From: Natrinema soli
GTDB lineage: Archaea; Halobacteriota; Halobacteria; Halobacteriales; Natrialbaceae
Length of the DNA: 11,840 nt
Direction of reading: 5' to 3'
Assembly: GCF_028618695.1 (NCBI RefSeq)
Contig: NZ_JAQIVI010000336.1
Coordinates: 1-11,840, forward strand
Both the position numbers and the translations under genes were made by a program. The notes under the pieces are model-generated. The model was not told where the DNA came from and made no database searches. It saw only the letters and a list, made by a program, of their open reading frames with translations. Position 1 is the first letter of the stretch. Each line of letters starts with the position of its first letter. This document shows, in pieces, positions 1-11,840 of the stretch.

Positions 1-1774
1 CGAACACGCCCGCGCGCTGACCGGGGAGCCGGCGACGGTGATCGACGAGGACGGCTCGCCCAGCGGTCGCCGCCACCTCGCGTTCTGGGATCCGCCGACG
101 GACGGCGGTGGAAGCGATAGTGATACTGAGTGGTCGCCGAGCAAACGCCCCGCCACCGTCGAGGCTCCCGAGGTCTGGGCGCACTGCTGCTATCACGGCG
201 TCCCCTCGCTGTTGTTCTGCGATTCGCGCAAGCAGACGGAACTGGCCGTCGGGCGCGCGCGGGAGTATCTCGAGAATCCCACCTTACCCTACCGGGGCAC
301 CGCCGACCTCGCGGCGTACAACGCGGGTCACGGAAAGCGGTCCCGGCGGGGGACCGAGAACCGGCTCAAAAGCGGGGAACTCGACGGCGTCGCGACGACC
401 AGCGCGCTCGAGGTCGGCATCGACGTCGGCGGGATCGACGGCACGATCCTCATGGGGTATCCCGGCTCCCGGCAGTCGTTCTGGCAGCGCCTCGGCCGCT
501 CGGGGCGCGACGAGCGCGATGCGCTCTCCGTGTTCGTCCCCAGTCACGCGACGCTGGACCAGTACATCCTGCGCCATCCGGAGTACCTCCTCGAGGAGGA
601 GCCCGAGAGCGCGGTCGTCGACCTCGCGAACAACCCGGTCTATCTCCAGCACCTGCGCTGTGCCGCTCAGGAACTCCCGTTGCGACGCGAGGACGCGGAC
701 CGGTTCGGCGGGATCGAGAGACTGGAACGAGCCGTCGAGTACGGCCGACGGACGGGGGATTTCGAGGGATCGCTTGCGGGCGGCGTCACGTACGCCCACC
801 GCGATCGGCCACAGAGCGAGATCAACCTGTACGCCTCCGGCGGGAACGCCTTCGAGGTGCGGCTGGCCGGCGAGGAGACCATCGGCCATCAGCCCATCGG
901 CAAAGCGCGCGCGTATCGGGACTATCACGAGGGCGCGACGGTGCTGTATCGGGGCGACCAGTACGAGGTCGTCGAACTGCGGGAGGATCGACCCCAGCCG
1001 TTCGTCACGCTCGAGCCGGTCGACGTGGACTACTACACCCAGTCCCAGCGCCGGACGACGATCTACGACACCGAAATCCGCGAGTCCCGCGACGTCGGCC
1101 CGTTCCGGCTCAACTGGGGGTACGGAACGGTCACGGTCCACCACGACACCTTCACGAAACGGGAGATCGGGACCGGCGACGTTCTCGCGGCGGGACTCGA
1201 GACCGGCGTCCCGCCCCTAGAGATGCGAACGCAACTGTGCTGGGCCGAAGTGCCCGACGACGTCGAACGGGCGGTAACGGCCGCTCACAGCGACTATCAC
1301 AACGACGAGTGCGAGGAGCTGCCGCCACGACTCCACGGCTACCTCGGCGGTATCCACGCCATCGAGCACGCGATGATCGCCGTCGCGCCCCTCGAGATGA
1401 CCGTAGACGCCGCGGATCTCGGCGGTCTCGCGACCAACCAGCTCCCCGACGGGACCGACGCGAGCGGCTGGTTCATCTACGATGGGGTCGAGGGCGGCCT
1501 GGGCTTTTCCCGGCGTATCTACGAGGAGTACGAGGCGGTCGCCAGCCGGGCGCGAGACCTGATGGCCGACTGCCCGTGCGGGCGCGACGAGGGCTGTCCC
1601 GCCTGTCTCATGGACGACCGCTGTGGCAACGACAACCGGCCGCTGTACGCGCCCGCGGCGACGGACGTGATCGACGCGTTGCTCGGCGATATCGACCCGG
1701 ACGGCCTGCTCTCCAGGTCGGAACCCGATCTCGAGGAAGGGACCGAGCGTCGACCGCCCGCGTCGATCTCGTAG
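1..1774 (+). CDS. DEAD/DEAH-box helicase with C-terminal DUF1998-type cysteine cluster (5'-partial)
   Basis: This is the 3' part of an SF2 ATP-dependent helicase of the YprA/MrfA (Hrq1-like) group; the DEAD motor with Walker A/B lies left of the window. The frame is open from the first complete codon at base 2, so the GTG at 38 is internal. The second RecA domain is visible: LLFCDSRKQTE near base 210, motif V (TTSALEVGIDVGGID) near 400-440, and motif VI (QRLGRSGR) near 485-505. A long middle region of unclear role follows. The C-terminus has a cysteine cluster of form C-x-C-x5-C-x2-C-x5-C at bases 1571-1624, typical of DUF1998 and probably metal binding. In Bacillus, MrfA of this family works in mitomycin-damage repair, so a DNA-repair role is likely but unproven here. 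The stop is TAG at 1772-1774. The next gene is convergent. Confidence 0.93.
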   Translation, partial: EHARALTGEPATVIDEDGSPSGRRHLAFWDPPTDGGGSDSDTEWSPSKRPATVEAPEVWAHCCYHGVPSLLFCDSRKQTELAVGRAREYLENPTLPYRGTADLAAYNAGHGKRSRRGTENRLKSGELDGVATTSALEVGIDVGGIDGTILMGYPGSRQSFWQRLGRSGRDERDALSVFVPSHATLDQYILRHPEYLLEEEPESAVVDLANNPVYLQHLRCAAQELPLRREDADRFGGIERLERAVEYGRRTGDFEGSLAGGVTYAHRDRPQSEINLYASGGNAFEVRLAGEETIGHQPIGKARAYRDYHEGATVLYRGDQYEVVELREDRPQPFVTLEPVDVDYYTQSQRRTTIYDTEIRESRDVGPFRLNWGYGTVTVHHDTFTKREIGTGDVLAAGLETGVPPLEMRTQLCWAEVPDDVERAVTAAHSDYHNDECEELPPRLHGYLGGIHAIEHAMIAVAPLEMTVDAADLGGLATNQLPDGTDASGWFIYDGVEGGLGFSRRIYEEYEAVASRARDLMADCPCGRDEGCPACLMDDRCGNDNRPLYAPAATDVIDALLGDIDPDGLLSRSEPDLEEGTERRPPASIS

Positions 1775-1824
1775 CCGCTGGAAGGAATTCGTCGTGTGCG
1801 GATGCCGAGAAACTGCGGGCGATC

Positions 1825-2217
1825 CTACGTTTCGGACTCGAGTTCGCTCGGATCGAGCGTCCCCTCGAGATACCGTTCGCCCAGTTCGGACACCTCGTAG
1901 ACGCCCGGCATGTGTTTCGTCAGGAGGCCGTACTTGGTCAGTTCGCGACATCGATAGGCCGCGTATTTCGCCGGGGCGATCCCCTCGTCGTCGATCTGGT
2001 TCGGTTCGAAGGCGTCCTCCGATCGGAGGAACTCGAGGATCGGCTTATCCGCGGGTTCCATCCACTCGGCGTCTGTTTCCGCTTCCGCTTCGCTCTCGGA
2101 CGCTTCGGTCCCGGTTTCGGAGTCGTCGGTACCGATTTCGGAGTCGTTAGTCCCAGTTTCGGAGTCGCCGGCATCGTCCGATGACTCCGCCGGATCGTCC
2201 GTCGTCGAATCGTCCAT
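1825..2217 (-). CDS. Small winged-helix DNA-binding protein (PhiH1-repressor-like) with acidic N-terminal tail
   Basis: A 130-residue protein. Residues 1 to about 50 are an acidic, Ser/Thr/Glu/Asp-rich tail containing three heptads (DSETGTN, DSEIGTD, DSETGTE). The remainder, from WMEPADKPILEFL through CRELTKYGLL to YEVSELGERYLEG, matches the haloarchaeal winged-helix pattern often annotated as PhiH1 repressor-like: helix, recognition helix, then the wing and a GERYL helix. It is probably a transcriptional regulator with unknown target. The ATG at 2217-2215 is chosen as start. A TTG at 2226-2224 would add three residues and sits 5 nt after a GGAGG, so it is a real alternative. No clear TATA box is visible upstream. 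It is convergent with the helicase gene, separated by 50 bp. Confidence 0.82.
   Translation of the reverse strand: MDDSTTDDPAESSDDAGDSETGTNDSEIGTDDSETGTEASESEAEAETDAEWMEPADKPILEFLRSEDAFEPNQIDDEGIAPAKYAAYRCRELTKYGLLTKHMPGVYEVSELGERYLEGTLDPSELESET
2106..2168. repeat. Three 21-bp tandem repeats coding the acidic heptads
   Basis: Three imperfect 21-bp units at 2106-2126, 2127-2147 and 2148-2168 share the core TTTCGGAGTCG. They lie in frame within the winged-helix gene and encode the DSE[TI]GT heptads of its tail. Being a multiple of three, the copy number could change without breaking the frame. Confidence 0.85.
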
Positions 2218-2281
2218 GGATGGCAAGACGCCCTCCTCGGGGGAATGTGTTTCTGAATCGCTCGAGGCCGCGCCACGCGAT

Positions 2282-2298
2282 CGGTGGCTTCGCCACCG
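2282..2298. other. Hairpin (7-bp stem, TTC loop)
   Basis: CGGTGGC at 2282-2288 is followed by TTC and then GCCACCG at 2292-2298, a perfect GC-rich stem. It lies 78 bp downstream of the stop of the minus-strand gene at 2377-2805 and 65 bp upstream of the winged-helix gene start. It may be an RNA 3'-end or leader structure. No T-tract follows on the minus strand, so a terminator role is weak. Confidence 0.45.
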
Positions 2299-2376
2299 GG
2301 ACGGAACGCCCGCGAACGACTCGGGACCCCGTCGAGTGAGAGGAACAGAGTGGCCGGCCGGACTCGCCCCTGATCG

Positions 2377-2805
2377 TTACTCCTCCGGGACAGCGTAATC
2401 GACGTGAACGTTCGGGACCGTCGCCGGTTCGCGCCCCGTGATTCCGCGATCGACGAACGTGACGTCGGTCAGGTCGCCGGTAAATCGGAACGTCACCGTT
2501 CCACTTTCGATCGTCCCTTCGACGGTGGTGCCCGAGAGGACGGTCACGTTCGCTTCCCGTTCCTCGTCGGCCAGCTCGATCGCGCCGTCGACGGTGAGTT
2601 CGAAACTCGATGGCGCTCCCTGCCCGATGATCGTCAGCACGTTCGACCGGTCACCGTTTGCGTCGGTCGTGTTCGACGTCGATCTCGTCGCCGCGATGGT
2701 CGCTGTCGCCGGCGTCTCGGTCTGGATCGGTGTACTGGCACGGTCTGTCGATTCCGCGGCGACACGGCCGTCGTCGCGGTCTCCCGTCGCGTTCTCGCGT
2801 CCCAT
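2377..2805 (-). CDS. Hypothetical protein resembling a haloarchaeal secreted beta-rich domain
   Basis: A 142-residue protein of unknown function. Residues 1 to about 52 are low complexity (Ser, Thr, Ala, Asp). From about residue 55, VLTIIGQGAPSSFELTVDG followed by a VEGTIESGTVTFRFTGDLTDV stretch resembles a domain common at the ends of haloarchaeal extracellular proteins, whose pattern is roughly LVIDG.G....YEFTVSG...I.G..V.G.V..G.D.FRFSGD. That similarity is from memory. No signal peptide, lipobox or membrane segment is visible. The start is ATG at 2805-2803: a TATA-like box lies 26 bp upstream and an in-frame TAG closes the frame further up, so no longer start exists. It may be cytoplasmic, secreted by another route, or a remnant that lost its leader. 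Confidence 0.7.
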   Translation of the reverse strand: MGRENATGDRDDGRVAAESTDRASTPIQTETPATATIAATRSTSNTTDANGDRSNVLTIIGQGAPSSFELTVDGAIELADEEREANVTVLSGTTVEGTIESGTVTFRFTGDLTDVTFVDRGITGREPATVPNVHVDYAVPEE

Positions 2806-3058
2806 ATAGTGGACAGAGTCGAGTATGACAGTATAAACCTTCTCACTGAACTAACGGTAAGAACTGGCGAAATATAACCACACAAGCCAAATTTCGACGC
2901 AACTTTGCGTGTTTGTATCGGGATTTTATACCGTCTCTCTGATCGATGATTCCTCGGCGACGGTCGACATGAGATGCGAGATCTCTCCAAGACACTCGAG
3001 CTGGTCGAGGGACGGTCTCTCCCACCCGCTCGACCGCTCTCGAGTGGAAAATCCGTGA
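2806..3058. other. AT-richer intergenic region with TATA-like boxes on both strands
   Basis: This 253-bp gap holds the promoter of the 2377-2805 gene at its left edge. It also has a plus-strand TATA-like stretch (ATTTTATACC, about 2924-2933) with no convincing plus-strand gene after it. A 30-codon frame from the ATG at 2969 reaches a stop just before 3059 and has no recognisable features. The plus-strand box may be fortuitous or may start a small or antisense transcript. Confidence 0.4.
2832..2837 (-). promoter_or_regulatory. TATA box for the 2377-2805 gene
   Basis: TTTATA on the minus strand ends 26 bp before the ATG at 2805. This is the spacing expected for a leaderless archaeal transcript and supports that start. 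Confidence 0.65.
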
Positions 3059-3283
3059 TCAGTCGTCCTCGAGGAGTCCGAGGTCGGTCGCGGCCAGATC
3101 CGCGATCTGATCGGCGATGTCGGGATCGACCTCGGCGACGTCGTCGCCGTCGTGGAGCTGCTCGTTGTGTCGGTCAATGGCGTCGGCGAGAGTCGAGAGG
3201 GGGACGCGAGAAGTCGTTTCGCAGTCAGGACAGACGACCGGGACGCGCGGGTCGTCTTCGTCCGACTCGCTTGTGTTCGTCAT
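3059..3283 (-). CDS. Small acidic C2H2-like zinc-finger protein
   Basis: A 74-residue acidic protein. The N-terminus is a short acidic tail (SESDEDD). Then come C18-P-D-C21, H39 in AIDRHNE and H44 in QLHDG, giving C-x2-C-x17-H-x4-H. This can bind one zinc ion in a C2H2-like manner. The rest is a predicted helical, acidic C-terminus (DIADQIADLAATDLGLL). Haloarchaea encode many such one-finger small proteins, and most have no assigned function. The start is ATG at 3283-3281 and the stop is TGA at 3061-3059. No clear TATA box was found upstream. It is flanked by non-coding gaps, so it is probably transcribed alone. Nucleic-acid or protein binding is inferred only from the finger. Confidence 0.78.
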   Translation of the reverse strand: MTNTSESDEDDPRVPVVCPDCETTSRVPLSTLADAIDRHNEQLHDGDDVAEVDPDIADQIADLAATDLGLLEDD

Positions 3284-3439
3284 TTGTCGTGTGTCTCGCG
3301 CCGATCGTCAAAGCCTCATTGGTTCACGTCCCGTCCGACGCGATCGTGTCGACCGACTTCGGCGTCGACACCCGGACCGGTGGGTTATTCCGCCCGAGCC
3401 GTTCACTCCGTTGCGACGCGCGAGGAACGTCATGGTTCC

Positions 3440-3457
3440 CGGCTACAGCCGTAGCCG
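3440..3457. other. Hairpin (7-bp stem, 4-nt loop)
   Basis: CGGCTAC at 3440-3446, loop AGCC, then GTAGCCG at 3451-3457 form a perfect stem. It directly abuts a second inverted repeat (GGAAC at 3424-3428 and GTTCC at 3435-3439). Both lie downstream of the PGF-CTERM gene on the minus strand and may mark its 3' end. Confidence 0.45.
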
Positions 3458-3480
3458 TCCCCTGTCTTTCTCCGAGTCGT

Positions 3481-3494
3481 CGGTTTCGAAACCG
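3481..3494. other. 14-bp perfect palindrome
   Basis: CGGTTTCGAAACCG reads the same on both strands. It lies in the 296-bp gap between the zinc-finger gene start (3283) and the PGF-CTERM gene stop (3580). It could be a dimeric-protein site or part of a 3' RNA structure. It is about 200 bp upstream of the zinc-finger gene, far for a core operator. Confidence 0.5.
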
Positions 3495-3579
3495 TAACCG
3501 GGACCGTCTGTTGTCGGTCTCCACGTCGACGGTGTGACGAGTGGTCGGCGACCGGGTCGGACGTACCGCCGGGTCGGCG

Positions 3580-4530
3580 TTACCGCCGATGTCGAGCGAG
3601 GGCGGCGACCGACAGCGCGACGACGGCCGCGAGCGCGCCGAATCCGGGCATCTCGTCGCCTCCATCGTCCTCGGTAGATTGCGTATCGTTCTCCTGTGAG
3701 GACTCACTCGAGTTGTTCTCCGGCGGATCGGTGCTGTTCGACCCGCCGGGCTCGAGCCGTTCGTCGGCCGGTGCGTCGAGTTGCAGGACGACGACGACCT
3801 GTCCGTGGGAGGCCTCGGTTTCGTAGGTCCAGCCGCCGCCGGCGTCCGCGTACGGTTCCGCGGCCGCGACCGGATCGATGTCCGTGTCCCAGCCGTTCCC
3901 TTCGGGAACCTGCTGGATGTAGCCGGCCACGTCGATCCTGTCGGCGTGTTCGCCGGTGATCTGCGCTTCGCCGTATTCGACGGTCGCGTCCTCCGGCAGG
4001 CCGTGCAGCTCGATGCAGTGAGAGTCCATGTAGCCGTCGCCCTGTGCGATGTCCGGGCTCGTCCCGAACTGGTCGGCGTCGAGCGGCCGGTCGTAGTTGT
4101 CCGTCATGGGGAAGTCGACGGTCATCGGGTCGGCGTCGGAGTGCCAGCTCGTCACGTCGTTCGTCGGAATCGTCACGGACGTGTTCGGGACCGACTCGCC
4201 GACCACCGGTTCGCCGTTTTCGTTGACCAGCGTAACGCAGACCTTCCCGGAGCCGTCCCCGAGGTACGGACTGCGGTACTCGTCGCGCGGGTTCTCGTAA
4301 CTGATCCAGCTCCCGTCGCTTGCCGCCGCCTCGAAGTAGGGATCGCCCGGCTCCGGCGCGGGTTCGACGTGCGCTTCCTCCGAGACGTTCTCGGTCGAAT
4401 CCTGGGCGACGGTGACCGCGGCCGTACCCGTCGCGACGAGACTGGCGATCACGACCAGTCCGAGGCCGAGAGCGAGAAGTCCGCGTCGCCCGCCCGGGAT
4501 CGGCCCTCGAGACCCCCGTAGTCCGGACAT
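3580..4530 (-). CDS. PGF-CTERM-anchored surface protein of unknown function
   Basis: A 316-residue exported protein. Residues 1 to about 42 are a signal peptide: a basic start including GGRRG, then the hydrophobic core LLALGLGLVVIASLVA, with cleavage probably near TVAQDS. The ectodomain is acidic and beta-rich in look, with two cysteines (KVCVTL and SHCIEL) that could form a disulfide. A Ser/Asn/Thr/Glu linker with N-glycosylation sequons (NST, NSS, NDT) precedes a C-terminal PGF motif (about 295-297), a short hydrophobic helix and the basic end ARHRR. In haloarchaea, archaeosortase A processes PGF-CTERM proteins and they are lipid-anchored at the S-layer face. I do not recognise the ectodomain. 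The ATG at 4530 is chosen; a GTG two codons earlier is possible, and a TGA blocks longer forms. Confidence 0.85.
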   Translation of the reverse strand: MSGLRGSRGPIPGGRRGLLALGLGLVVIASLVATGTAAVTVAQDSTENVSEEAHVEPAPEPGDPYFEAAASDGSWISYENPRDEYRSPYLGDGSGKVCVTLVNENGEPVVGESVPNTSVTIPTNDVTSWHSDADPMTVDFPMTDNYDRPLDADQFGTSPDIAQGDGYMDSHCIELHGLPEDATVEYGEAQITGEHADRIDVAGYIQQVPEGNGWDTDIDPVAAAEPYADAGGGWTYETEASHGQVVVVLQLDAPADERLEPGGSNSTDPPENNSSESSQENDTQSTEDDGGDEMPGFGALAAVVALSVAALARHRR

Positions 4531-4928
4531 GGTCACGCCCCGTCACCGAGTTCGATCGCCGAGTTATCGATCCTGTGACTGTTCTGCAGCGACGACTGTC
4601 GTTCGACGCTATCGGTCATCGAACTGGGGTACCGGGTTCCCCGTTCTATATATGAGCCGCGTACCCTGGGAGTAACCGGTTGTTACGTCTAGTAGGCAGT
4701 CGTTTAGACACTGAACCGTTCGCGAAATATCTGCTACTGGGCAGCCGTGGAGTGACTCGTTCGAAGCGGCTCTCGCTCGGCGTCATCGCAGTTACGCAAC
4801 TGGGTTGTTCCGACTCATCGACCACGGCGAAAATCGGATATAGTTCAGCTGAAGTGATATGAAATGTACACTGTCCGAAAGATGGGCGGTTAGTTAAATT
4901 TAACACCCACTATCTAGCAGGGTGTGGT
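4531..4928. promoter_or_regulatory. Divergent intergenic region between the PGF-CTERM gene and the permease gene
   Basis: This 398-bp region is the longest without a supported gene. It contains a TATATA-like stretch near 4646-4653 that could serve either strand, 115 bp before the PGF-CTERM start. It also has an inverted repeat GTAAC at 4672-4676 and GTTAC at 4682-4686 around CGGTT, a 10-bp palindrome TTCAGCTGAA at 4844-4853, and the permease core promoter at its right end. Open frames here, such as minus-strand 4646-4906, lack protein-like composition and cover the promoters. Confidence 0.55.
4893..4904 (+). promoter_or_regulatory. Palindromic TATA box of the permease gene
   Basis: GTTAAATTTAAC is a perfect 12-bp palindrome ending 24 bp before the ATG at 4929, the right spacing for a haloarchaeal TATA element of a leaderless or near-leaderless transcript. 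Its symmetry means a dimeric repressor could also bind it. A weak GGTG lies just before the ATG. Confidence 0.65.
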
Positions 4929-6326
4929 ATGGGAGAAGATACCAGAAAGTTTGAGCGCATCCTGACGAAGAAAGATCTCTTCGTGCTCGCGTTCGGTGCA
5001 ATGATTGGCTGGGGATGGATCATCCAGACGGGGTTCTGGATCGACGAAGCCGGCGTGGCCGGATCAGTTCTCGGCTTCGTCGTCGGGGCGATCATGGTCT
5101 GTATCGTCGGCCTGATTTACGGCGAACTCGCCTCCGCGTTGCCGTTCGTTGGCGGGGAGCACGTGTACAGCCTTCGAGCGCTCGGTCCGGTCGGATCGTT
5201 CGTGTGCACCTGGTCGCTCGTTCTCGGATACGTCGGCGTCGTCGTGTTCGAAGTCATCGCACTGCCGTCCGCGATGGCGTACATCGTGCCAGGATTTAAC
5301 GTCCTCGAGCTCTGGTCGGTGGCCGGAGAACCGGTGTACGCGTCCTGGATCCTCGTCGGCGGTATCGGTGCGATCGTGATGACGGCGCTCAACTACCGCG
5401 GCGTGAAACCCGCAGCGCAGTTTCAGACGATACTGACGCTCGTCATCGCGCTGGCCGGAATCATGCTCGCCGTCGGGGCCGTCCTCAACGGCCAGTCGCA
5501 GCCGAACCCGCCGTTGTCCGACGTCGGTGCAACGGGGGTCGCCACGGTCGCGATCATGACGCCGTTCATGTTCGTCGGATTCGACGTCATTCCGCAATCC
5601 GCGGAGGAAGCGGATGTGCCTCCCCGTCTCATCGGCCTTCTCATCCCGGCCTCCGTCACGCTGGCCGCCCTGTTTTACATCGGCGTCATCTGGGCGTCCG
5701 GGCAGGCGATGCCCGGTTCCGCACTCGTCGAGAGTCCGCTGCCCGCCGCCGCGGCGATGGAGACGGTCTTCGACAGCCAGCTAATCGGTCGCATTATGGC
5801 CTTGGCGGGGATCGCAGGCGTCCTCACGAGCTGGAACTCGTTCCTGCTCGGTGCCAGTCGCGCGGTCTTCGCGCTCGCCGACTCCGGGATGATTCCGAAG
5901 CGAATCAGCACGATTCATCCCGAGTACAACACGCCGTCGACGGCCGTCATCCTCATCGGCGGGCTCTCTATCTTCGCCCCGCTGTTCGGCGAACAGATGC
6001 TGGTCTGGATCGTCAACGCTGCCGGTCTCGGCCTCGTCATCGCGTGGTTCTTCGTGGTCGTTTCGTTCTTCGTGCTTCGGCGCAACGAACCCGAACTGGA
6101 TCGGCCGCTTAAACTGCCGTTCGGCTACGCGTTCGGCGCCGTTGCACTCGTCCTGACGCTCGGATTTATCGGCCTGTACTTGCCCGGCGGCCCGTCGGCG
6201 CTCCTGTGGCCCTACGAGTGGCTGATCGTCCTCTGCTGGGCGCTTTTGGGTGTCGTCCTGTACAGCGTCTCGTCGACTGACTCGGAGCTCGAACTGACGG
6301 ATCTGGACACGGAGGAACTCGAGTAG
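4929..6326 (+). CDS. APC-superfamily amino acid/amine permease
   Basis: A 465-residue integral membrane protein with about 12 hydrophobic segments, the standard APC length and topology. Segment 1 carries G-A-M-I-G-W-G at residues 23-29, the glycine-rich unwound stretch that binds the amino and carboxyl groups in APC transporters. VGGEHVYS after segment 2 and the motif VGFDVIPQSAEEAD in the middle are also family-typical. The C-terminus is a short acidic cytoplasmic tail. It should import, or exchange, an amino acid or amine by a secondary mechanism; the substrate cannot be read from sequence. It starts at the first ATG after a strong TATA box and ends 12 bp from the convergent Lrp-type regulator gene. 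That regulator and the nearby aminotransferase suggest an amino-compound utilisation role. Confidence 0.92.
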   Translation: MGEDTRKFERILTKKDLFVLAFGAMIGWGWIIQTGFWIDEAGVAGSVLGFVVGAIMVCIVGLIYGELASALPFVGGEHVYSLRALGPVGSFVCTWSLVLGYVGVVVFEVIALPSAMAYIVPGFNVLELWSVAGEPVYASWILVGGIGAIVMTALNYRGVKPAAQFQTILTLVIALAGIMLAVGAVLNGQSQPNPPLSDVGATGVATVAIMTPFMFVGFDVIPQSAEEADVPPRLIGLLIPASVTLAALFYIGVIWASGQAMPGSALVESPLPAAAAMETVFDSQLIGRIMALAGIAGVLTSWNSFLLGASRAVFALADSGMIPKRISTIHPEYNTPSTAVILIGGLSIFAPLFGEQMLVWIVNAAGLGLVIAWFFVVVSFFVLRRNEPELDRPLKLPFGYAFGAVALVLTLGFIGLYLPGGPSALLWPYEWLIVLCWALLGVVLYSVSSTDSELELTDLDTEELE

Positions 6327-6338
6327 CCGCTCGAGCGG
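6327..6338. terminator. 12-bp palindrome filling the gap between two convergent stops
   Basis: CCGCTCGAGCGG exactly occupies the space between the permease stop TAG (6324-6326) and the regulator stop (TCA on the plus strand, 6339-6341). It can fold on either strand as a 4-bp stem with a TCGA loop. A shared bidirectional 3'-end signal is possible, but the stem is short and no T-tract follows. Confidence 0.35.
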
Positions 6339-6830
6339 TCAGTCGGAGTCCGTCGTGGCCTCTACCAACGTCTCTAACTCGAAGTCGTTCAGTGGATGGG
6401 GCTCGTCTTTGACGGTTTCGACGACGAACTGCGAACTCGTTCGGACGACCTCGTCGATCCTCTCGTAGTCGCTGATGAGTCGCTGGACCATCTCGCGATC
6501 CGACAGGTGTGCGATGACGACGAAGTCCGTGTCCCCCATCGTGAAATACACCTGATTGACCCCCTCGATGGCAGCGAGTTTCGTCCCGACTTCGTCGTGA
6601 TACTGCTCCTCGTATTCCGCGATGACTTCCGAGATAACCGTGATCTCGAGGCCCAGTTTCTCGAGATCGACATCGAACAGATCGTCTGTCACGATCCCGT
6701 CCTCTCTGAGCTTCGTCAGTCGATAGTGGACGGTCGACTTCGGAATATCGGTGTACTCGGAGATCTCGTCCGGACTGCCGGTCCCCAGATCCGCGACGGC
6801 CTGCAGAATGCGGATATTTCGCTCGTCCAT
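6339..6830 (-). CDS. Lrp/AsnC-family transcriptional regulator
   Basis: A 163-residue regulator of the feast/famine family. Residues 2-50 form the N-terminal winged helix, with the helix-turn-helix about 20-42 (DEISEYTDIPKSTVHYRLTKL). Residues about 60-140 are the AsnC/RAM ligand-sensing and oligomerisation domain (TVISEVIAEYE, IEGVNQVYFTMGDTDFVVIA). Such proteins bind DNA as dimers or higher oligomers and usually respond to an amino acid. ATG 6830 is chosen because the TATA-like box at 6853-6858 lies 22 bp upstream; the TTG at 6854 would overlap that box. It is divergent from the aminotransferase and convergent with the permease, so it is the obvious candidate to control both and itself. The ligand is unknown. 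Confidence 0.92.
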   Translation of the reverse strand: MDERNIRILQAVADLGTGSPDEISEYTDIPKSTVHYRLTKLREDGIVTDDLFDVDLEKLGLEITVISEVIAEYEEQYHDEVGTKLAAIEGVNQVYFTMGDTDFVVIAHLSDREMVQRLISDYERIDEVVRTSSQFVVETVKDEPHPLNDFELETLVEATTDSD

Positions 6831-6852
6831 ATCTCGTGAAAGGGAACCCGCC

Positions 6853-6858
6853 AATAAA
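6853..6858 (-). promoter_or_regulatory. TATA box of the Lrp-type regulator gene
   Basis: TTTATT on the minus strand ends 22 bp before ATG 6830. An 8-bp palindrome ATTCGAAT at 6863-6870 lies just upstream of it and could be an autoregulatory half of an Lrp site. Confidence 0.6.
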
Positions 6859-6964
6859 CAACATTCGAATACGAAACCTGTACGCGGCCCAAAGTTGGAT
6901 TCAGTTCGATAGTTCGTCGATCGCGCGGAATCACGCTACTCGATCAAACTATCAGCGCTCCCCA

Positions 6965-7000
6965 TTTGAATAACTCGGACTATACTGCCATCTATTCAAA
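6965..7000. promoter_or_regulatory. Candidate operator: perfect 8-bp inverted repeat upstream of the aminotransferase promoter
   Basis: TTTGAATA at 6965-6972 and TATTCAAA at 6993-7000 are exact reverse complements separated by 20 bp (centres 28 bp apart, just under three helical turns). The right arm ends 9 bp before the aminotransferase TATA box, over the usual BRE/activator zone. The position between the divergent regulator and aminotransferase genes makes it the best candidate Lrp-type binding site. It is not proven. Confidence 0.55.
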
Positions 7001-7009
7001 GAAGCATGG

Positions 7010-7016
7010 TTTAATA
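7010..7016 (+). promoter_or_regulatory. TATA box of the aminotransferase gene
   Basis: TTTAATA ends 24 bp before the ATG at 7041, matching a leaderless transcript. It supports the ATG over the upstream TTG at 6966. Confidence 0.65.
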
Positions 7017-7040
7017 GGACATGGTATAGATACAGGAACT

Positions 7041-8375
7041 ATGTCCGAACAAGAACCAGAATCGCCGAACGGAGCGCAGACGAATTCGGCCGTCGTGTCG
7101 GCGTACGACGAGCACCTGATGCCGATCTGGAAATCGCTCGATGTGCCCGTAAAACGGGCCTCGGGATGCACGCTCGAGGACTTCGAGGGCAACGAGTACC
7201 TCGATGTCTTCTCCGGGATTTCGGTGGTCAACGTCGGCCACGGAAACGACGCCGTCGTCGACGCCGCGACGGAGCAACTCGAGGAGTTCGTCCACGGCTG
7301 TTCGTACGTCCACCCCAACGAACCGGTCGCCGATCTCGCCGAGCGGATCGCCGAGGTGACGCCGGGCGACCTGCAGAAGAGCTTCTTCTGTAACTCCGGG
7401 ACGGAAGCCGTCGAGGGGGCCGTCAAGCTCGCGCGGAAGTACACCGGCTCGAAGGAGGTCATCGCCCTCGAGATGGGCTTTCACGGCCGCACGCTCGGCA
7501 GTCTGGCGCTGACGGGGAACAAGGCCTACAAGCAGGGTATGGCCCCGACGCTCAACGATGTCGCTCACACCGCGCCGCCGTACGGCTACCGCTGTCCGCG
7601 CTGTGACGGCGACCGGTGCGACGCCGATTGCGCCGAGGAACTCGAGCGGATCATCGGCTCGCACACGAGCGGGGACCTCGCGGCGGTCGTCGTCGAACCC
7701 GTCATGGGCGAAGCCGGGATCATCGTGCCGCCGGCGGGGTGGCTCGAGCGGGTCCAGGAGATCGCCCACGACCACGGCGCGTTGCTCATCGCCGACGAGG
7801 TACAGACCGGCTACGGTCGAACGGGGGAGCTGTTCGCGAGCGATCACTTCGACGTCGAGCCCGACATCCTGACGCAGGCGAAGGGGATCGCGAACGGGCT
7901 TCCCCTCGGTGCGTTCACTGCCTCCGAAGAAATCGCGAACGCCTTCGAGTCCGGCGACCACCTCTCGACGTTCGGCGGCAACCCCGTCGCCTGCGCCGCC
8001 GCGCTGGCGACGATCGACGAACTGCAGGACGGGATCGTCGACAACGCCAGCGAGCAGGGGGCGTGGCTCGAGTCGGAACTCCAGACCCTCGAAGAGGAGT
8101 ACGACGTCGTCGGGCAGGCGCGGGGCCTCGGATTGATGCGCGGCGTCGAACTCGTCGATCCGAGCGAGACGGGACCACAGAACGTCGCGCCGAAACCGGA
8201 CAGCGACCTCGCGTCCGCGGTGAGCGAGTCCCTCCGCGAGGAGTCGAACGTCGTGATGGGCGTCGGCGGCTACTACAAGAACGTCATGCGCTTCCAGCCG
8301 CCGCTGACCATCTCTCGCGACCAGCTCGAGTACGCCGTCGACGAACTGCGGGCGGCCCTCGAGACGGTCGCCTGA
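7041..8375 (+). CDS. Class III PLP-dependent aminotransferase (4-aminobutyrate aminotransferase-like)
   Basis: A 444-residue fold-type I aminotransferase of class III, the family of GABA, ornithine, acetylornithine and AGXT2-type enzymes. The phosphate-binding loop is C117-N-S-G-T-E-A-V. D252 in IADEVQTGYGRTG contacts the pyridine nitrogen. K281 in TQAKGIANGLPLGA is the Schiff-base lysine. HGRTLGSLALTGN lies between. It would move an amino group, probably from an omega-amino acid, to 2-oxoglutarate or pyruvate. Residues 185-197 hold four cysteines (C-x2-C-x4-C-x3-C) in an exposed insertion, a variant of a Cys-containing loop found in some relatives, possibly metal binding. The start is ATG 7041, by the TATA box 24 bp upstream. 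It is divergent from the Lrp-type gene. The exact substrate cannot be told. Confidence 0.9.
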   Translation: MSEQEPESPNGAQTNSAVVSAYDEHLMPIWKSLDVPVKRASGCTLEDFEGNEYLDVFSGISVVNVGHGNDAVVDAATEQLEEFVHGCSYVHPNEPVADLAERIAEVTPGDLQKSFFCNSGTEAVEGAVKLARKYTGSKEVIALEMGFHGRTLGSLALTGNKAYKQGMAPTLNDVAHTAPPYGYRCPRCDGDRCDADCAEELERIIGSHTSGDLAAVVVEPVMGEAGIIVPPAGWLERVQEIAHDHGALLIADEVQTGYGRTGELFASDHFDVEPDILTQAKGIANGLPLGAFTASEEIANAFESGDHLSTFGGNPVACAAALATIDELQDGIVDNASEQGAWLESELQTLEEEYDVVGQARGLGLMRGVELVDPSETGPQNVAPKPDSDLASAVSESLREESNVVMGVGGYYKNVMRFQPPLTISRDQLEYAVDELRAALETVA

Positions 8376-8407
8376 GCGTCCGCAGCCGCGACGAACGGGA
8401 CCGACTC

Positions 8408-8476
8408 GAGTGCGGATCGACCGCACTCACGGCAGGTTGGCTGCGATCCCGCACTCGATGTGAATCGAACTGCGGG
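8408..8476 (+). terminator. Two tandem hairpins downstream of the aminotransferase gene
   Basis: Hairpin 1 is GAGTGCGG (8408-8415), loop ATCGA, CCGCACTC (8421-8428), a perfect 8-bp stem. Hairpin 2 is CCCGCA (8448-8453) plus TCGAT (8455-8459), a GTGA loop of GNRA type, then ATCGA (8464-8468) and TGCGGG (8471-8476), with a small internal loop. They lie 33 to 101 bp after the stop and may form the 3' end of the aminotransferase transcript. No T-tract follows. A leader or attenuator role for the next gene is less likely, since a TATA box lies between. Confidence 0.45.
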
Positions 8477-8557
8477 TCCTCGCTCTCGGCGGAACAGGTC
8501 GATAGTCGGGACAATCAGCTTCTGTCGGACGCTGTCCAAAAAACGATTGTAAGTTAG

Positions 8558-8564
8558 CTTTATC
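8558..8564 (+). promoter_or_regulatory. TATA box of the biotin carboxylase gene
   Basis: CTTTATC ends 27 bp before the GTG start at 8592. It indicates that the carboxylase gene has its own promoter, although it lies on the same strand 216 bp after the aminotransferase gene. Confidence 0.55.
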
Positions 8565-8591
8565 TGGAAATAGAAACCATATCACGACACT

Positions 8592-9935
8592 GTGTTCGAA
8601 AGAGTGCTGATCGCGAACCGAGAAGAGATCGCCGTTCGAATCGTTCAGGCGTGCAAGGACCTGGGTATCGACGCGATAGCCGTCTACAGCGACGCCGACG
8701 AGGACGCCAAACACGTCCGCATGGCCGACGAAGCCTACCACATCGGCGGCTCGAAGGCGAAAGACAGTTACCTCGACCAGGACGCGCTGCTCGAGGCGGC
8801 GCGGGCGGCCGACGCCGACGCGATCCACCCGGGATACGGGTTCCTCGCCGAGAACGAGTCGTTCGCGGCGAACGTCGAAGAGAGCGAGTTCGCGTGGATC
8901 GGCCCGCCGAGCGACGTGATGGCGGACTTCGGCGAGAAGACGAAAGCTCGGAAGATCATGGAGTCGGCGGACGTCCCCATCGTGCCCGGAACGACCGAGC
9001 CGGTCACGTCCGCCGACGAAGTCGAGGCGTTCGCCGAGGAGCACGGCTATCCCGTCGCGATCAAAGCCGACGGTGGCGGCGGCGGCCGCGGCCTCAAGAT
9101 CGTCCACGAACCGTCCCAGATCGACTCGAAGCTTCAGGAAGCGATTCGAGAGGGCGACGCGTACTTCGACAACCCGACCGTCTACCTCGAGCGGTTCCTC
9201 GAGAGCCCGCGTCACATCGAGGTCCAGATCATCGGCGACGAACACGGCACCGTCCGCCACCTCGGCGAGCGCGACTGCAGCATTCAGCGACGCCAGCAGA
9301 AACTCCTCGAGGAATCCCCCTCGCCGGTGCTAGACGACGAAACGCGCGCCGAACTCTGCGAGGCCGCCTGCCGCGGCGCGGCGGCGGCGGACTACGTCAA
9401 CGCCGGCACCGTCGAGTTCCTCTACGAGGGCGGCGAGTTCTACTTCATCGAAGTCAACGCGCGGATTCAGGTCGAACACGCGGTGACCGAGGAACTCACC
9501 GGGATCGATCTGGTCAAGTGGCAGATTCGGGTCGCCGCCGGCGAAGAACTGTCGTTCTCCCAAGACGAGGTCGAACCGCGCGGGGCCGCCATGGAATTCC
9601 GCGTCAATGCGGAGGACCCCGACAACGATTTCACGCCGCTGCCGGGGACGCTGTCGACGTACGAACCGCCGCGGGGTATCGGCGTTCGCGTCGACGACGG
9701 CGTCGACGAGGGGGACTCGATCGCCCCGTTTTACGACTCGATGTTCGCGAAACTGATCGTCACCGGGCAGGACAGAGACGAGGTGCTCGCCCGCAGCAAA
9801 CGCGCGCTCGACGAAACGGCGATCGAGGGCGTTCCGACGACGATCCCGTTCCACCGGAGACTACTCGAGAACGACGGGTTCGTTTCGAACGAACACACCA
9901 CGAAGTACGTGGAACGGGAACTGCTCGACGGGTGA
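8592..9935 (+). CDS. accC: Biotin carboxylase (AccC-type subunit)
   Basis: A 447-residue stand-alone biotin carboxylase: a biotin-carboxylase N-terminal domain, an ATP-grasp domain (about 115-320) and a C-terminal domain. It uses ATP and bicarbonate to carboxylate biotin on a carrier protein. Conserved residues fall almost at E. coli AccC positions: K158 before the glycine loop G161-G165-R-G, HIEVQI, E287-V-N-A-R291-I-Q-V-E295-H, and R337 in FRVNAEDP. The N-terminal NRGEIA motif reads NREEIA, a Gly-to-Glu change next to a conserved site. The start is GTG 8592, fixed by [10 protein letters not shown] alignment and a TATA box. No acyl-CoA carboxyltransferase is in the window. The convergent pxpA and bccP-like genes suggest that it serves the Pxp complex rather than fatty-acid synthesis. 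Confidence 0.93.
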
Positions 9936-9970
9936 GAACCGACCGGCTGCAGGGGGTGGGCACGGTTCTC
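9934..9970. terminator. Inverted repeat between convergent accC and pxpA
   Basis: GAGAACCG at 9934-9941, overlapping the accC stop codon, pairs perfectly with CGGTTCTC at 9963-9970 across a 21-nt spacer. It fills most of the 55-bp gap between convergent genes and could end transcription in both directions. There is no T-tract. Confidence 0.4.
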
Positions 9971-9990
9971 TTGGCGTTCCGACCCGCCGT

Positions 9991-10752
9991 TCAGGCGATT
10001 TGAGATAGCGGTGCGAGTTCGATATCGTGTTCCTCGACCCGGTCGTGGATCGCCTCGAGGATCGCGACGGCGTTGGGGTTGTCCCCGTGGATACAGATGC
10101 TCTCGGCGGGGATCGCGATCTCCTCGCCGTTCGCCGCCTCCACGACACCGTCGGTGGCGATCGAGACGAACCGATCGGCGACGAGTTCCGGATCGCGGTC
10201 GGCGAGTTCCTGCTCGACGATCAGGGAGCGGTCGGCCCGGTAATCCAGGTCGACGTAGCCTTCGAAAACGGCCCGGAGCCCGTCGATGTCCCGTGCGACC
10301 TCGTAGATGTTCATGTCGGTCGCGAGGTAGATAAGATCGTCGTCGACCTCGAGCATGCCGTTCATGACCGCGCGGGCGTGTTCTGGGCTTTCCGAGAGCA
10401 TCGAATACATCGCTCCGTGGGGTTTGACGTGCTGGACGGTCGCGCCGTGGCGGCGAGCGAACGCCGTGAGCGCGCCGAGTTGGTAGACGACGTAGTCGCG
10501 CACTTCCGCGGGAGTGGCGTCGATCTTGCGGCGACCGAAACCGGTTCGGTCCGGGAGGCCGGGGTGAACGCCGATGCCGACGTCGTGTTCGGCCGCCAAC
10601 TCGACCGTTTCCCGCATTACGTGCGGATCGCCGGCGTGATATCCGCCGGCGACGTTCGCGGACGTGATGTAGGGCATGACCGCCTCGTCGTGGCCCATCG
10701 TCCAGTTGCCAAAGCTCTCGCCCATATCGCAGTTGATGTCGATTGCCGTCAT
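9991..10752 (-). CDS. pxpA: 5-oxoprolinase subunit A (LamB/YcsF family)
   Basis: A 253-residue, full-length LamB/YcsF protein. Family signatures are clear: IDINCDMGE at residues 4-12, SANVAGGYHAGDP at 31-43, GVHPGLPDRTGFGRR at 61-75, HVKPHGAMY at 108-116 and IHGDNPNAV near 222. The fold is a distorted TIM barrel like polysaccharide deacetylases, with the conserved His/Asp residues at the active site. With PxpB and PxpC it forms the ATP-dependent enzyme that opens 5-oxoproline to glutamate in prokaryotes. The ATG at 10752 is chosen: it gives the usual MTAIDINCD start and has a TATA box 24 bp upstream. An upstream start would add an atypical 27-residue extension. It lies 203 bp downstream of the carrier-protein gene and is convergent with accC. 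Confidence 0.94.
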   Translation of the reverse strand: MTAIDINCDMGESFGNWTMGHDEAVMPYITSANVAGGYHAGDPHVMRETVELAAEHDVGIGVHPGLPDRTGFGRRKIDATPAEVRDYVVYQLGALTAFARRHGATVQHVKPHGAMYSMLSESPEHARAVMNGMLEVDDDLIYLATDMNIYEVARDIDGLRAVFEGYVDLDYRADRSLIVEQELADRDPELVADRFVSIATDGVVEAANGEEIAIPAESICIHGDNPNAVAILEAIHDRVEEHDIELAPLSQIA

Positions 10753-10776
10753 GAGTGAGTGTCTAGCACAATCCAG

Positions 10777-10783
10777 CATATAG
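10777..10783 (-). promoter_or_regulatory. TATA box of pxpA
   Basis: CTATATG on the minus strand ends 24 bp before ATG 10752, the expected leaderless spacing. pxpA can therefore be transcribed separately from the carrier gene upstream. Confidence 0.55.
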
Positions 10784-10824
10784 CTTACGTCGGTTCGTCC
10801 AACAGTATCCGAAAACGTCAAATG

Positions 10825-10850
10825 TAGTCTCACGAAGGATGCAGAGACTA
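10825..10850. promoter_or_regulatory. Inverted repeat upstream of the pxpA promoter
   Basis: TAGTCTC at 10825-10831 and GAGACTA at 10844-10850 are exact reverse complements with a 12-nt spacer. The site is about 42 bp upstream of the pxpA TATA box. It may be a regulator site, or a 3' hairpin of the upstream carrier transcript. Confidence 0.4.
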
Positions 10851-10904
10851 GCTCCTATCCGGCTAAATGACAGAAAACCTGTCTCGATTACAGCCGAATC
10901 GCTA

Positions 10905-10922
10905 CCGGCCGACAGCGGCCGG
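10905..10922 (-). terminator. GC-rich hairpin downstream of the carrier-protein gene
   Basis: CCGGCCG (10905-10911) and CGGCCGG (10916-10922) form a perfect 7-bp stem with a 4-nt loop, starting 33 nt after the carrier gene stop on the minus strand. A second small inverted repeat (GACAG at 10869-10873 and CTGTC at 10879-10883) surrounding TTTT on the minus strand follows. Together they suggest a 3' end or processing site before pxpA. Confidence 0.45.
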
Positions 10923-10955
10923 AACCCGCCGATCCGGCGAGTCGCTCCGACGCCG

Positions 10956-11198
10956 TTATTCGATCTCGACGATCGCCTGATCGGCTTCGACTTCGGCTTC
11001 GTTCTCGACGAGGAACTCGCTGATCGTCCCCGAACTGTCGGCCTCGATGTCGTGGAAGTTCTTCATCACTTCGACGAGGCCGATGGTGTCGCCCGCTTCG
11101 ACGGTGTCTCCCGGCTCGGCGAACGGCGGGTCGTCGGGGTCGGGTTGTCGGTAGAAGATGCCCGGCATCGGTGACTTGATCGTGGTTTTCTCTGTCAT
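10956..11198 (-). CDS. accB: Biotin carboxyl carrier protein (biotinyl domain, Pxp-associated)
   Basis: An 80-residue protein that is essentially one biotinyl/lipoyl domain, without the Ala/Pro linker of typical acetyl-CoA carboxylase AccB. The biotin site is EVMKNF with K46 as the acceptor lysine; the -VMK- form is typical of carriers next to KipI/KipA genes, in place of the usual AMKM. PMPGIFYRQPDPDDPPF precedes the barrel. It would carry carboxybiotin made by the biotin carboxylase to an acceptor subunit, most likely the PxpB/PxpC pair. The ATG at 11198 gives the normal start MTEKTTIKSPMPG; a TTG 8 codons upstream is less likely. It lies 80 bp after pxpC on the same strand. The symbol accB is used for the family only. 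Confidence 0.9.
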   Translation of the reverse strand: MTEKTTIKSPMPGIFYRQPDPDDPPFAEPGDTVEAGDTIGLVEVMKNFHDIEADSSGTISEFLVENEAEVEADQAIVEIE

Positions 11199-11278
11199 CT
11201 GTTGCGGTTGTGTCGGATTCAATCCCGAATCTATTCTTTGTTTTGGTTACCGTCCCGTCTGTTAGCGTGTCGTTGACT

Positions 11279-11840
11279 CTAATTCTCTCCTTCGATGTCC
11301 GCTCGGATCGCCTCGAGGCGAGCGTCCTGATCCGTGCGCGCGTCGATCGCTTCGTCGACGTCGACCGACTCGAAGTGGACCGACTTGTGGGTCTGGCGCT
11401 GTGCGAGCAGCCCACGGTCGGCGCTGATCACGGTCCCGACAGTCGCGTAGCCGCCGCCCGTGACCGCGTCCTGCATGAGGACGATCGGCTGCTGGGGCAC
11501 CTGAATCGACCCGATGGGATAGCCGAGGTCGACGACGTTCGACGGGTCGGTTCCCGCGCCGAAGGGTTGCTCGCGCTCCTCGAACTCGAGATCCGGTCCC
11601 TCGAGCCGGTAGCCGACGCGGTCGGCTTCCGCCGAGACGGTCCACTCGGACTCACAGAGCGTCGCTTTGGCCTCGTCCGTGAGCCGGTAGCTCGTCAGTC
11701 CGAGGACGATCCGAACGGTGTCCTCGTCCGCGTAGTCGGGCACGTCATCGTCGTCGATCCGCGTGCCGACCAGTTCGCGTCGTTCGGCCGGCGCGTCGCC
11801 GATCGGGAGCCGGTCGCCCTCCTCGAGGCCGCGGCCCTCG
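11279..11840 (-). CDS. pxpC: 5-oxoprolinase subunit C (KipA/AHS2 family), C-terminal part
   Basis: The C-terminal 186 residues of a KipA/AHS2-domain protein; the frame stays open to the right edge, so the GTG at 11743 is internal and the true start lies outside. Signatures are GLEEGDRLPIG, RVGYRLEGP, YPIGSIQVPQQPIVLMQDAVTGGGYATVGTV split around the GGGYAT core, and ISADRGLLAQ. PxpC pairs with PxpB (KipI/AHS1) in 5-oxoprolinase. The same two domains occur in the carboxyltransferase region of urea carboxylase. It ends with the acidic IEGEN just before a TAG. The carrier-protein gene follows on the same strand, which supports a biotin-dependent reaction. pxpB is expected to lie directly upstream, beyond the window. 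Confidence 0.9.
   Translation of the reverse strand, partial: EGRGLEEGDRLPIGDAPAERRELVGTRIDDDDVPDYADEDTVRIVLGLTSYRLTDEAKATLCESEWTVSAEADRVGYRLEGPDLEFEEREQPFGAGTDPSNVVDLGYPIGSIQVPQQPIVLMQDAVTGGGYATVGTVISADRGLLAQRQTHKSVHFESVDVDEAIDARTDQDARLEAIRADIEGEN

Follow-up and report, generated by a model that had tools for sequence, protein, structure and literature searches.

The closest described relatives of the system considered here are urea carboxylase, which joins biotin carboxylase (BC), carboxyltransferase (CT) and carrier parts, and the lactamase PxpABC, whose coupling of ATP to ring opening is described as assumed in a passage of PMC13274462. A section of PMC3199775 also mentions adjacent gene pairs that match the CT halves of urea carboxylase, as yet unstudied, in some bacteria and in Thermococcales. 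The stretch analyzed here, 11,840 nucleotides of the haloarchaeon Natrinema soli (contig NZ_JAQIVI010000336.1, positions 1 to 11,840; hereafter the window), ends with genes for a BC, a PxpA hydrolase, a small biotinyl carrier and part of a PxpC-like protein. Here it is proposed that these, together with a PxpB-like protein, probably form a five-protein split biotin-dependent enzyme, which opens a cyclic amide by carboxybiotin-driven N-carboxylation followed by the action of PxpA. Judged by its sequences, the gene set is a genuine relative of urea carboxylase, split, conserved and paired with a PxpA hydrolase.

The free-standing BC gene (8592..9935, plus strand, GTG start) encodes an AccC-like protein of 447 aa, which scores 619 bits against PRK08591 (cut-off 597). 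The other three genes are on the minus strand. PxpA (LamB/YcsF family, 253 aa, 9991..10752, ATG at 10750-10752) is present with 292 bits to PF03746 and 298 bits to PRK05406.1-3 (cut-off 226), matches 1v6t (E 2e-70) and is 95% identical to the PxpA of N. versiforme (locus L032). The biotinyl carrier (10956..11198), of 80 aa from its ATG, is recognized by NF005457/PRK07051 (110 bits, cut-off 87) and has its biotinyl lysine codon at 11061-11063, in the context EVMKNF. Positions 11279..11839 encode the last 186 residues of a PxpC-like CT half (PF02626), the 5' end of the gene lying past the window edge. The Pfam and NCBIfam profiles thus confirm what the sequence-only reading had seen, namely a full BC, a carrier with EVMK, PxpA and the C-terminus of PxpC side by side, and the ATP-grasp BC and the carrier with its biotinyl lysine are the broad features of a biotin-dependent carboxylase. 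Because the BC gene and pxpA converge tail to tail from opposite strands, the BC is not in the pxpA transcript. No PxpB gene was found inside the window, which ends within the PxpC-like gene. A 4.8-kb part of the window aligns collinearly with locus L251 at 93% and with locus L032 at 91%. In these two loci, a PxpB-like gene overlaps the full-length PxpC-like relative (7333-8310 in L251, 8488-9465 in L032) by 4 bases, on the side where the sequence-only reading had expected pxpB, and the missing gene should sit just past the window end. All results on the PxpB-like half come from relatives, with L032 and L251 standing in for the window. Genes of the BPL/LplA/LipB fold were found in all ten relative genomes checked.

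A scan for PxpA with one genome per species returned 78 loci, 34 of them haloarchaeal, and because 27 of these 34 hold all five genes (PxpA, PxpB-like, PxpC-like, carrier and BC; hereafter the cassette), the linkage of the cassette genes is far above chance. Among the incomplete loci, a contig end interrupts L003, the entire 8.9-kb contig of L008 carries just PxpA and BC, the fetched sequences of L009 and L035 break off within PxpC, with no carrier seen there, L004 is without BC only, and in L025 and L029 PxpA stands by itself. The haloarchaeal cassettes come in at least six gene orders, so the set has been kept together while being reshuffled. PxpA was present in 51 of the 391 genomes drawn from the class of N. 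versiforme, and the carrier in 47 of these 51 and in none of the 60 genomes sampled without PxpA (the first 60, in list order, of 340 such genomes). Most of the 47 carriers (43) are at most 10.5 kb from PxpA, the remainder being one on another contig and three 41-213 kb off. A conserved linkage of accC, accB and pxpABC across haloarchaea, which the sequence-only reading had named as a check, is borne out by these counts. Short duplicates (L141-L167) were excluded from the counts, and L135 (= L029) and L140 (= L008) from those over the 41 distinct haloarchaeal loci given below.

The urea-carboxylase-like PxpB proteins are called K-type here and the ordinary PxpB R-type, after the residue, Lys or Arg, at the position of Lys1605 in the K. 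lactis enzyme KlUA. This catalytic lysine is present in 43/43 K-type PxpB-like sequences and 4/4 urea carboxylases, and Arg in 89/89 ordinary PxpB; KlUA Lys1605, Tyr1606 and Tyr1637 are common to the CT of urea carboxylase and that of the cassette. In a quick tree including 12 of 31 haloarchaeal sequences and 36 of the 75 R-type sequences without BC linkage, the K-type sequences stand outside the R-type group (support of 98 in the Shimodaira-Hasegawa-like approximate likelihood ratio test, SH-aLRT) and are not members of the ordinary R-type lineage; their place beside urea carboxylase comes from midpoint rooting and the shared residues. Fold prediction places the PxpB-like half nearest to KlUC, and its closest solved structure is urea carboxylase. 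These comparisons set the PxpB-like half apart from ordinary PxpB and show its resemblance to urea carboxylase. The quick trees of PxpB, PxpA and PxpC are unrooted, with long branches. The residue counts at 1605 and 1330 and the BC-proximity counts took in all sequences.

The PxpC-like half carries an insert found in urea carboxylase, AGTDPSNVVDLGYPIGSIQ in the window (11501..11557, minus strand), with Gln at the KlUA-1330 position, which we take to be the urea/guanidine specificity position, matched to the alignment. This Gln is present in 42/42 K-type sequences with data, window included, and is the same residue as in PxpC, the Asn or Asp of urea carboxylase not being found. At the specificity position, Asn corresponds to urea and Asp to guanidine, according to the pertinent part of PMC12186494. 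The window part, which is truncated by the window end, scores 88 bits against a PxpC equivalog cut-off of 500. K-type PxpC-like sequences, the window included, form one group with SH-aLRT 99 in a quick tree (13 of 32 haloarchaeal sequences, 36 of 72 R-type ones without BC linkage), and the two CT genes appear, on the trees, to form their own group. The idea that both CT halves stand outside PxpB/PxpC was dropped for the PxpC half, as neither the scores nor the tree bear it out.

Window PxpA groups with the PxpAs of K-type cassettes, with a SH-aLRT of 89 only (15 of 35 haloarchaeal sequences and 30 of 74 R-type ones without BC linkage in the tree). The closest kin of the window BC are the haloarchaeal cassette BCs, which in a carefully built tree of 58 BCs form the sister group of further haloarchaeal BCs (frames of 608-780 aa) and not of bacterial cassette BCs. 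The haloarchaeal part of that tree comprised 11 cassette BCs from the PxpA-scan loci and the window, five of the ten cassette BCs of a ten-genome set and all 13 other BCs of that set. Forcing all cassette BCs together cost 108.5 log-likelihood units (approximately unbiased test, p 2.6e-14; groups set by gene context, and the test picked after a quick BC tree displayed the split), and a single origin of the cassette BC was rejected. Haloarchaea thus recruited their cassette BC separately from bacteria, and that a similar CT has been joined by a different BC in different lineages argues that this CT needs one. The NREEIA motif of the window BC was discarded as a feature of the system, being found in 4 of the 34 haloarchaeal cassette BC sequences (including L140, a repeat of L008), with NRGEIA in 23.

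The K-type set was also found on plasmids of Alphaproteobacteria (L087-L089) and in genomes sampled from the phyla of Paenalcaligenes (L127-L129) and Solirubrobacter (L210, L213, L216-L218). With bacterial five-gene sets at hand, the cassette as an archaea-only system was rejected. A BC lies within 8 kb of 29/31 haloarchaeal and 10/12 bacterial K-type genes. On the plasmid of Agrobacterium rubi (L087, 9931-16855), the cassette is followed by a gene for an LLM flavin-dependent oxidoreductase, the F420 biosynthesis genes cofC, cofD, cofE and cofH, and gabT. In L088, ~1.4 kb behind the K-type cassette, there are A and B genes of the hydantoinase/oxoprolinase type (11307-15289), the other lactamase family.

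In the proposed mechanism, the BC, with ATP and bicarbonate, would carboxylate the biotin on the 80-residue carrier, which would then visit a CT built of the PxpB-like and PxpC-like proteins. There, the urea-carboxylase lysine would help to carboxylate a lactam-like substrate at its ring nitrogen, PxpA would hydrolyze the activated N-carboxylated ring amide, and the resulting carbamate would shed CO2 to give an amino acid. The N-carboxylation and the order of steps we infer from the linkage, the carrier co-occurrence and the urea carboxylase lysine. The same evidence, together with the lack of a nearby acyl-CoA carboxyltransferase in the ten genomes checked, supports the split-urea-carboxylase idea and the division of labor put forward by the sequence-only reading. 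Its view of the CT genes as PxpB and PxpC is amended, in that they form their own group and the PxpB-like half is outside ordinary PxpB.

As for the substrate, molybdenum hydroxylase genes (small, FAD and Mo subunits) were found in 8 of 36 haloarchaeal loci (the window, L001-L032, L034, L035 and L091, among which L025 and L029 have PxpA alone), and they lie between the carrier and PxpA in L026, L031 and L034; no NCBIfam model scored above its cut-off for the molybdenum enzyme. In 7 of 20 haloarchaeal genomes this enzyme is at most 7.4 kb from PxpA, against an expectation of 0.29 for a distance of 10 kb (58 such genes), although related species share arrangements and the seven cases are not all independent; this set and the ten-genome set were hand-picked from the 51 genomes with PxpA. 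In bacteria, the Mo subunit is near 5/12 K-type genes versus 1/89 R-type genes (Fisher p 5.6e-5), and near 2 of 16 PxpA loci that yielded no PxpB. Molybdenum hydroxylase also adjoins three (L137-L139) of the six orphan haloarchaeal PxpA genes (L134-L139), without BC, carrier or CT genes. A second PxpA lies directly behind a molybdenum hydroxylase gene in L129 (1128-4367), ~7 kb from a complete cassette. Other neighbors in the 41 distinct haloarchaeal loci include class III aminotransferase (16 loci), Lrp-type regulator (15), amidase (8), carbamoylase-like M20 allantoate amidohydrolase (5) and hydantoinase-like amidohydrolase (5), and a Zn-dependent hydrolase is near the cassette of R. johnstonii. 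That related loci have molybdenum hydroxylase, aminotransferase, carbamoylase and amidase as neighbors suggests a cyclic amide that is catabolized, and a lactam made by the hydroxylase, opened to an amino acid and then transaminated would fit them. The substrate would be a pyrrolidone-type or related cyclic amide, with 5-oxoproline as one candidate only. Urea or guanidine as substrate is disfavored by the Gln at 1330 and by the PxpA partner.

Several other explanations share part of this evidence. The carbamoylase, hydantoinase-like and Zn-dependent hydrolase neighbors just mentioned would suit the same chemistry acting on a cyclic ureide or imide, hydantoin-like, that feeds these enzymes; as neither the window nor most of the loci have the carbamoylase and hydantoinase-like genes, and hydantoinase-like enzymes open ureide rings without a carboxylase, this is considered unlikely. 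A split urea or guanidine carboxylase, with its allophanate or carboxyguanidine product degraded by PxpA or a nearby amidase, would agree with the conserved Lys1605, the closest solved structure of the PxpB-like half and the amidases in 8 of the 41 loci. However, PxpA partners lactams and not allophanate, as in PxpABC, the 1330 position is Gln rather than Asn or Asp in all 42 K-type sequences with data, and no amidase was found among the ten window open reading frames (ORFs) scanned. This explanation is therefore regarded as quite improbable, even though urea use in A. baumannii needs mumC, named urea carboxylase and in an operon with an allophanate-hydrolase homolog, in the account given in part of PMC5050338.

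It could also be that the BC and carrier serve an acyl-CoA carboxylase of fatty acid or propionyl-CoA metabolism, as NCBIfam labels both as acetyl-CoA carboxylase parts. The carboxyltransferase gene that this would call for (PF01039), and whose presence nearby would have spoken against the sequence-only reading, is over 45 kb away from PxpA or on a different contig in 10/10 genomes checked and absent among the ten window ORFs scanned, while each of the ten genomes has at least one further BC (608-780 aa frame), that of genome G001 being ~2 kb from a carboxyltransferase, which leaves this explanation very improbable. An ordinary ATP-dependent 5-oxoprolinase, with direct phosphorylation of 5-oxoproline by PxpB and PxpC and another task for the neighboring BC and carrier, would agree with several points: phosphorylation by PxpBC followed by PxpA is the assumed route in a passage of PMC13274462, ATP hydrolysis by R-type PxpB/C is reported in part of PMC8453981, no BC lies within 8 kb in 75 of the 89 R-type PxpB loci, the PxpC-like half scores closest to YbgK/PxpC, and the window BC is on the other strand. 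It is nevertheless rather unlikely in view of the near-perfect co-occurrence of carrier and PxpA in haloarchaea, the persistence of the set while gene orders vary, the PxpB-like half outside the R-types and bearing the urea carboxylase lysine, and the separate recruitment of BC in haloarchaea and bacteria.

The biotin-dependent opening of a cyclic amide remains the preferred explanation, and a number of observations weigh against it. The carrier is missing from four haloarchaeal genomes that bear PxpA, some copies of PxpA are orphans, the BC is ~112 kb from the cassette in L004/G313 and non-adjacent in G142, and the haloarchaeal carrier motif is GVMK in 18/31 loci (e.g., L010, L012, L014) and EVMK in 13/31. 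In bacteria, L216 shows no BC in the stretch examined, and a Rhodococcus plasmid (L090) has the CT pair and PxpA with no BC or carrier in the fetched stretch. The window PxpC-like part scores 88 bits to PxpC versus 57 to urea carboxylase, that of L032 scores 162 bits to E. coli YbgK versus 132 to urea carboxylase, and the quick tree does not settle the place of the K-type PxpC-like group among R-type PxpC and urea carboxylase; for the PxpB-like half, the lead of urea carboxylase over KipI (2zp2) is small, 64.0 versus 60.9 bits. The window is itself without molybdenum hydroxylase, the enzyme used to guess the substrate. A BC also lies within 8 kb of 14/89 R-type PxpB genes, all with Arg (L122, L124, L126, L168-L170, L172, L173, L195, L199, L201, L202, L206 and L208), and their BCs split among three groups in the BC tree. 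Lys1605 is consequently not required for association with a BC, and BC linkage is wider than the lysine. Lys1605 as a general marker of BC linkage was rejected on these grounds, and it marks the urea-carboxylase-like subtype only; ordinary PxpABC may sometimes use a BC. Finally, R-type PxpB/C co-purify with ATPase activity, as stated in part of PMC8453981, so CT-like proteins may have other chemistry.

To the left of the cassette genes, the window contains two of the recurrent neighbors, a class III aminotransferase (6966..8375, plus strand) and an Lrp/AsnC-type regulator (6339..6854, minus strand), as well as an APC-family amino acid permease (4929..6326, plus strand), a candidate uptake partner. 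The permease was found in 2 of the 41 distinct haloarchaeal loci, the window and L032, and its region (4890-6333) also aligns to L251 at 85%. The window also encodes the C-terminal part of an MrfA/HRQ1-like helicase with an MZB zinc-binding domain (2-1774), and a 318-aa protein (3580-4536) with a C-terminal PGF-CTERM sorting signal and no further Pfam domain at E 0.001.

Among the matches listed in the open-licence PMC literature, none was a biochemical study of BC-linked PxpABC or of a split urea carboxylase, and the section of PMC3199775 on split CT genes mentions no linkage to BC, carrier or PxpA and does not name haloarchaea. The cassette is like PxpABC of B. subtilis, E. coli and C. glutamicum in its PxpA family, the homologous PxpB/PxpC folds, the Gln at 1330 and a PxpC-like half nearest to YbgK, and differs from it by the Lys at 1605, the BC and carrier in the set, and a PxpA in a separate group (support 89). 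The BC-linked R-type PxpABC loci resemble it in having a BC and, mostly, a carrier beside PxpA/B/C-like genes; they differ by Arg at 1605, BCs in other clades and a PxpB that is shorter or fused in most, and their carrier motif, read in 9 of the 14 loci, is EAMK. P. aeruginosa PA0492-PA0496 is presumably one such BC-linked R-type PxpABC, with PA0492 as its PxpA. The function of PA0493/PA0494 is given as unknown in part of PMC6249292. The KipI/KipA-type pair MSMEG_0435-MSMEG_0436 of M. smegmatis (PDB 9yx5, 3mml) is bound, according to the title of 9yx5, to a long-chain acyl-CoA carboxylase complex, and differs, from chain names, alignments and that title, in being an R-type pair with another carboxylase complex. 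The BC-linked ordinary PxpABC loci and this pair may use carboxybiotin too.

Caprolactamase CapAB, as described in part of PMC8453981, opens its lactam in dependence on ATP and bicarbonate, as is proposed for the cassette, but consists of unrelated hydantoinase/OplA-type proteins and uses no biotin; no hydantoinase A/B domains (OplA/HyuAB/CapAB) were found among the ten window ORFs scanned. It is possible, though tentative, that the cassette represents a third, biotin-dependent form of ATP-driven cyclic-amide opening beside OplA/CapAB and the assumed phosphorylation by PxpABC, as a stand-alone lineage next to urea carboxylase, with the catalytic residues of the latter and a Pxp-like pocket, which together with the molybdenum hydroxylase may form an unrecognized catabolic route. 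In this route, proposed for haloarchaea, Actinomycetota and Pseudomonadota, an N-heterocycle or cyclic imine would be oxidized to a lactam, which would be N-carboxylated and opened. A cassette with its own BC, carrier and urea carboxylase lysine makes the carboxybiotin mechanism directly testable, and suggests that a single enzyme may be encoded where annotations list 5-oxoprolinase together with subunits of acetyl-CoA carboxylase. With urea carboxylase/urea amidolyase (KlUA; TIGR02712), the cassette shares the BC, CT and carrier parts, the CT residues and the insert in the PxpC-like half, while its proteins come from five separate genes and are not fused in one chain, position 1330 is Gln, the partner is PxpA rather than an allophanate hydrolase, and the BC is of a different lineage; urea carboxylase thereby gains a relative in separate parts, with another enzyme as partner.

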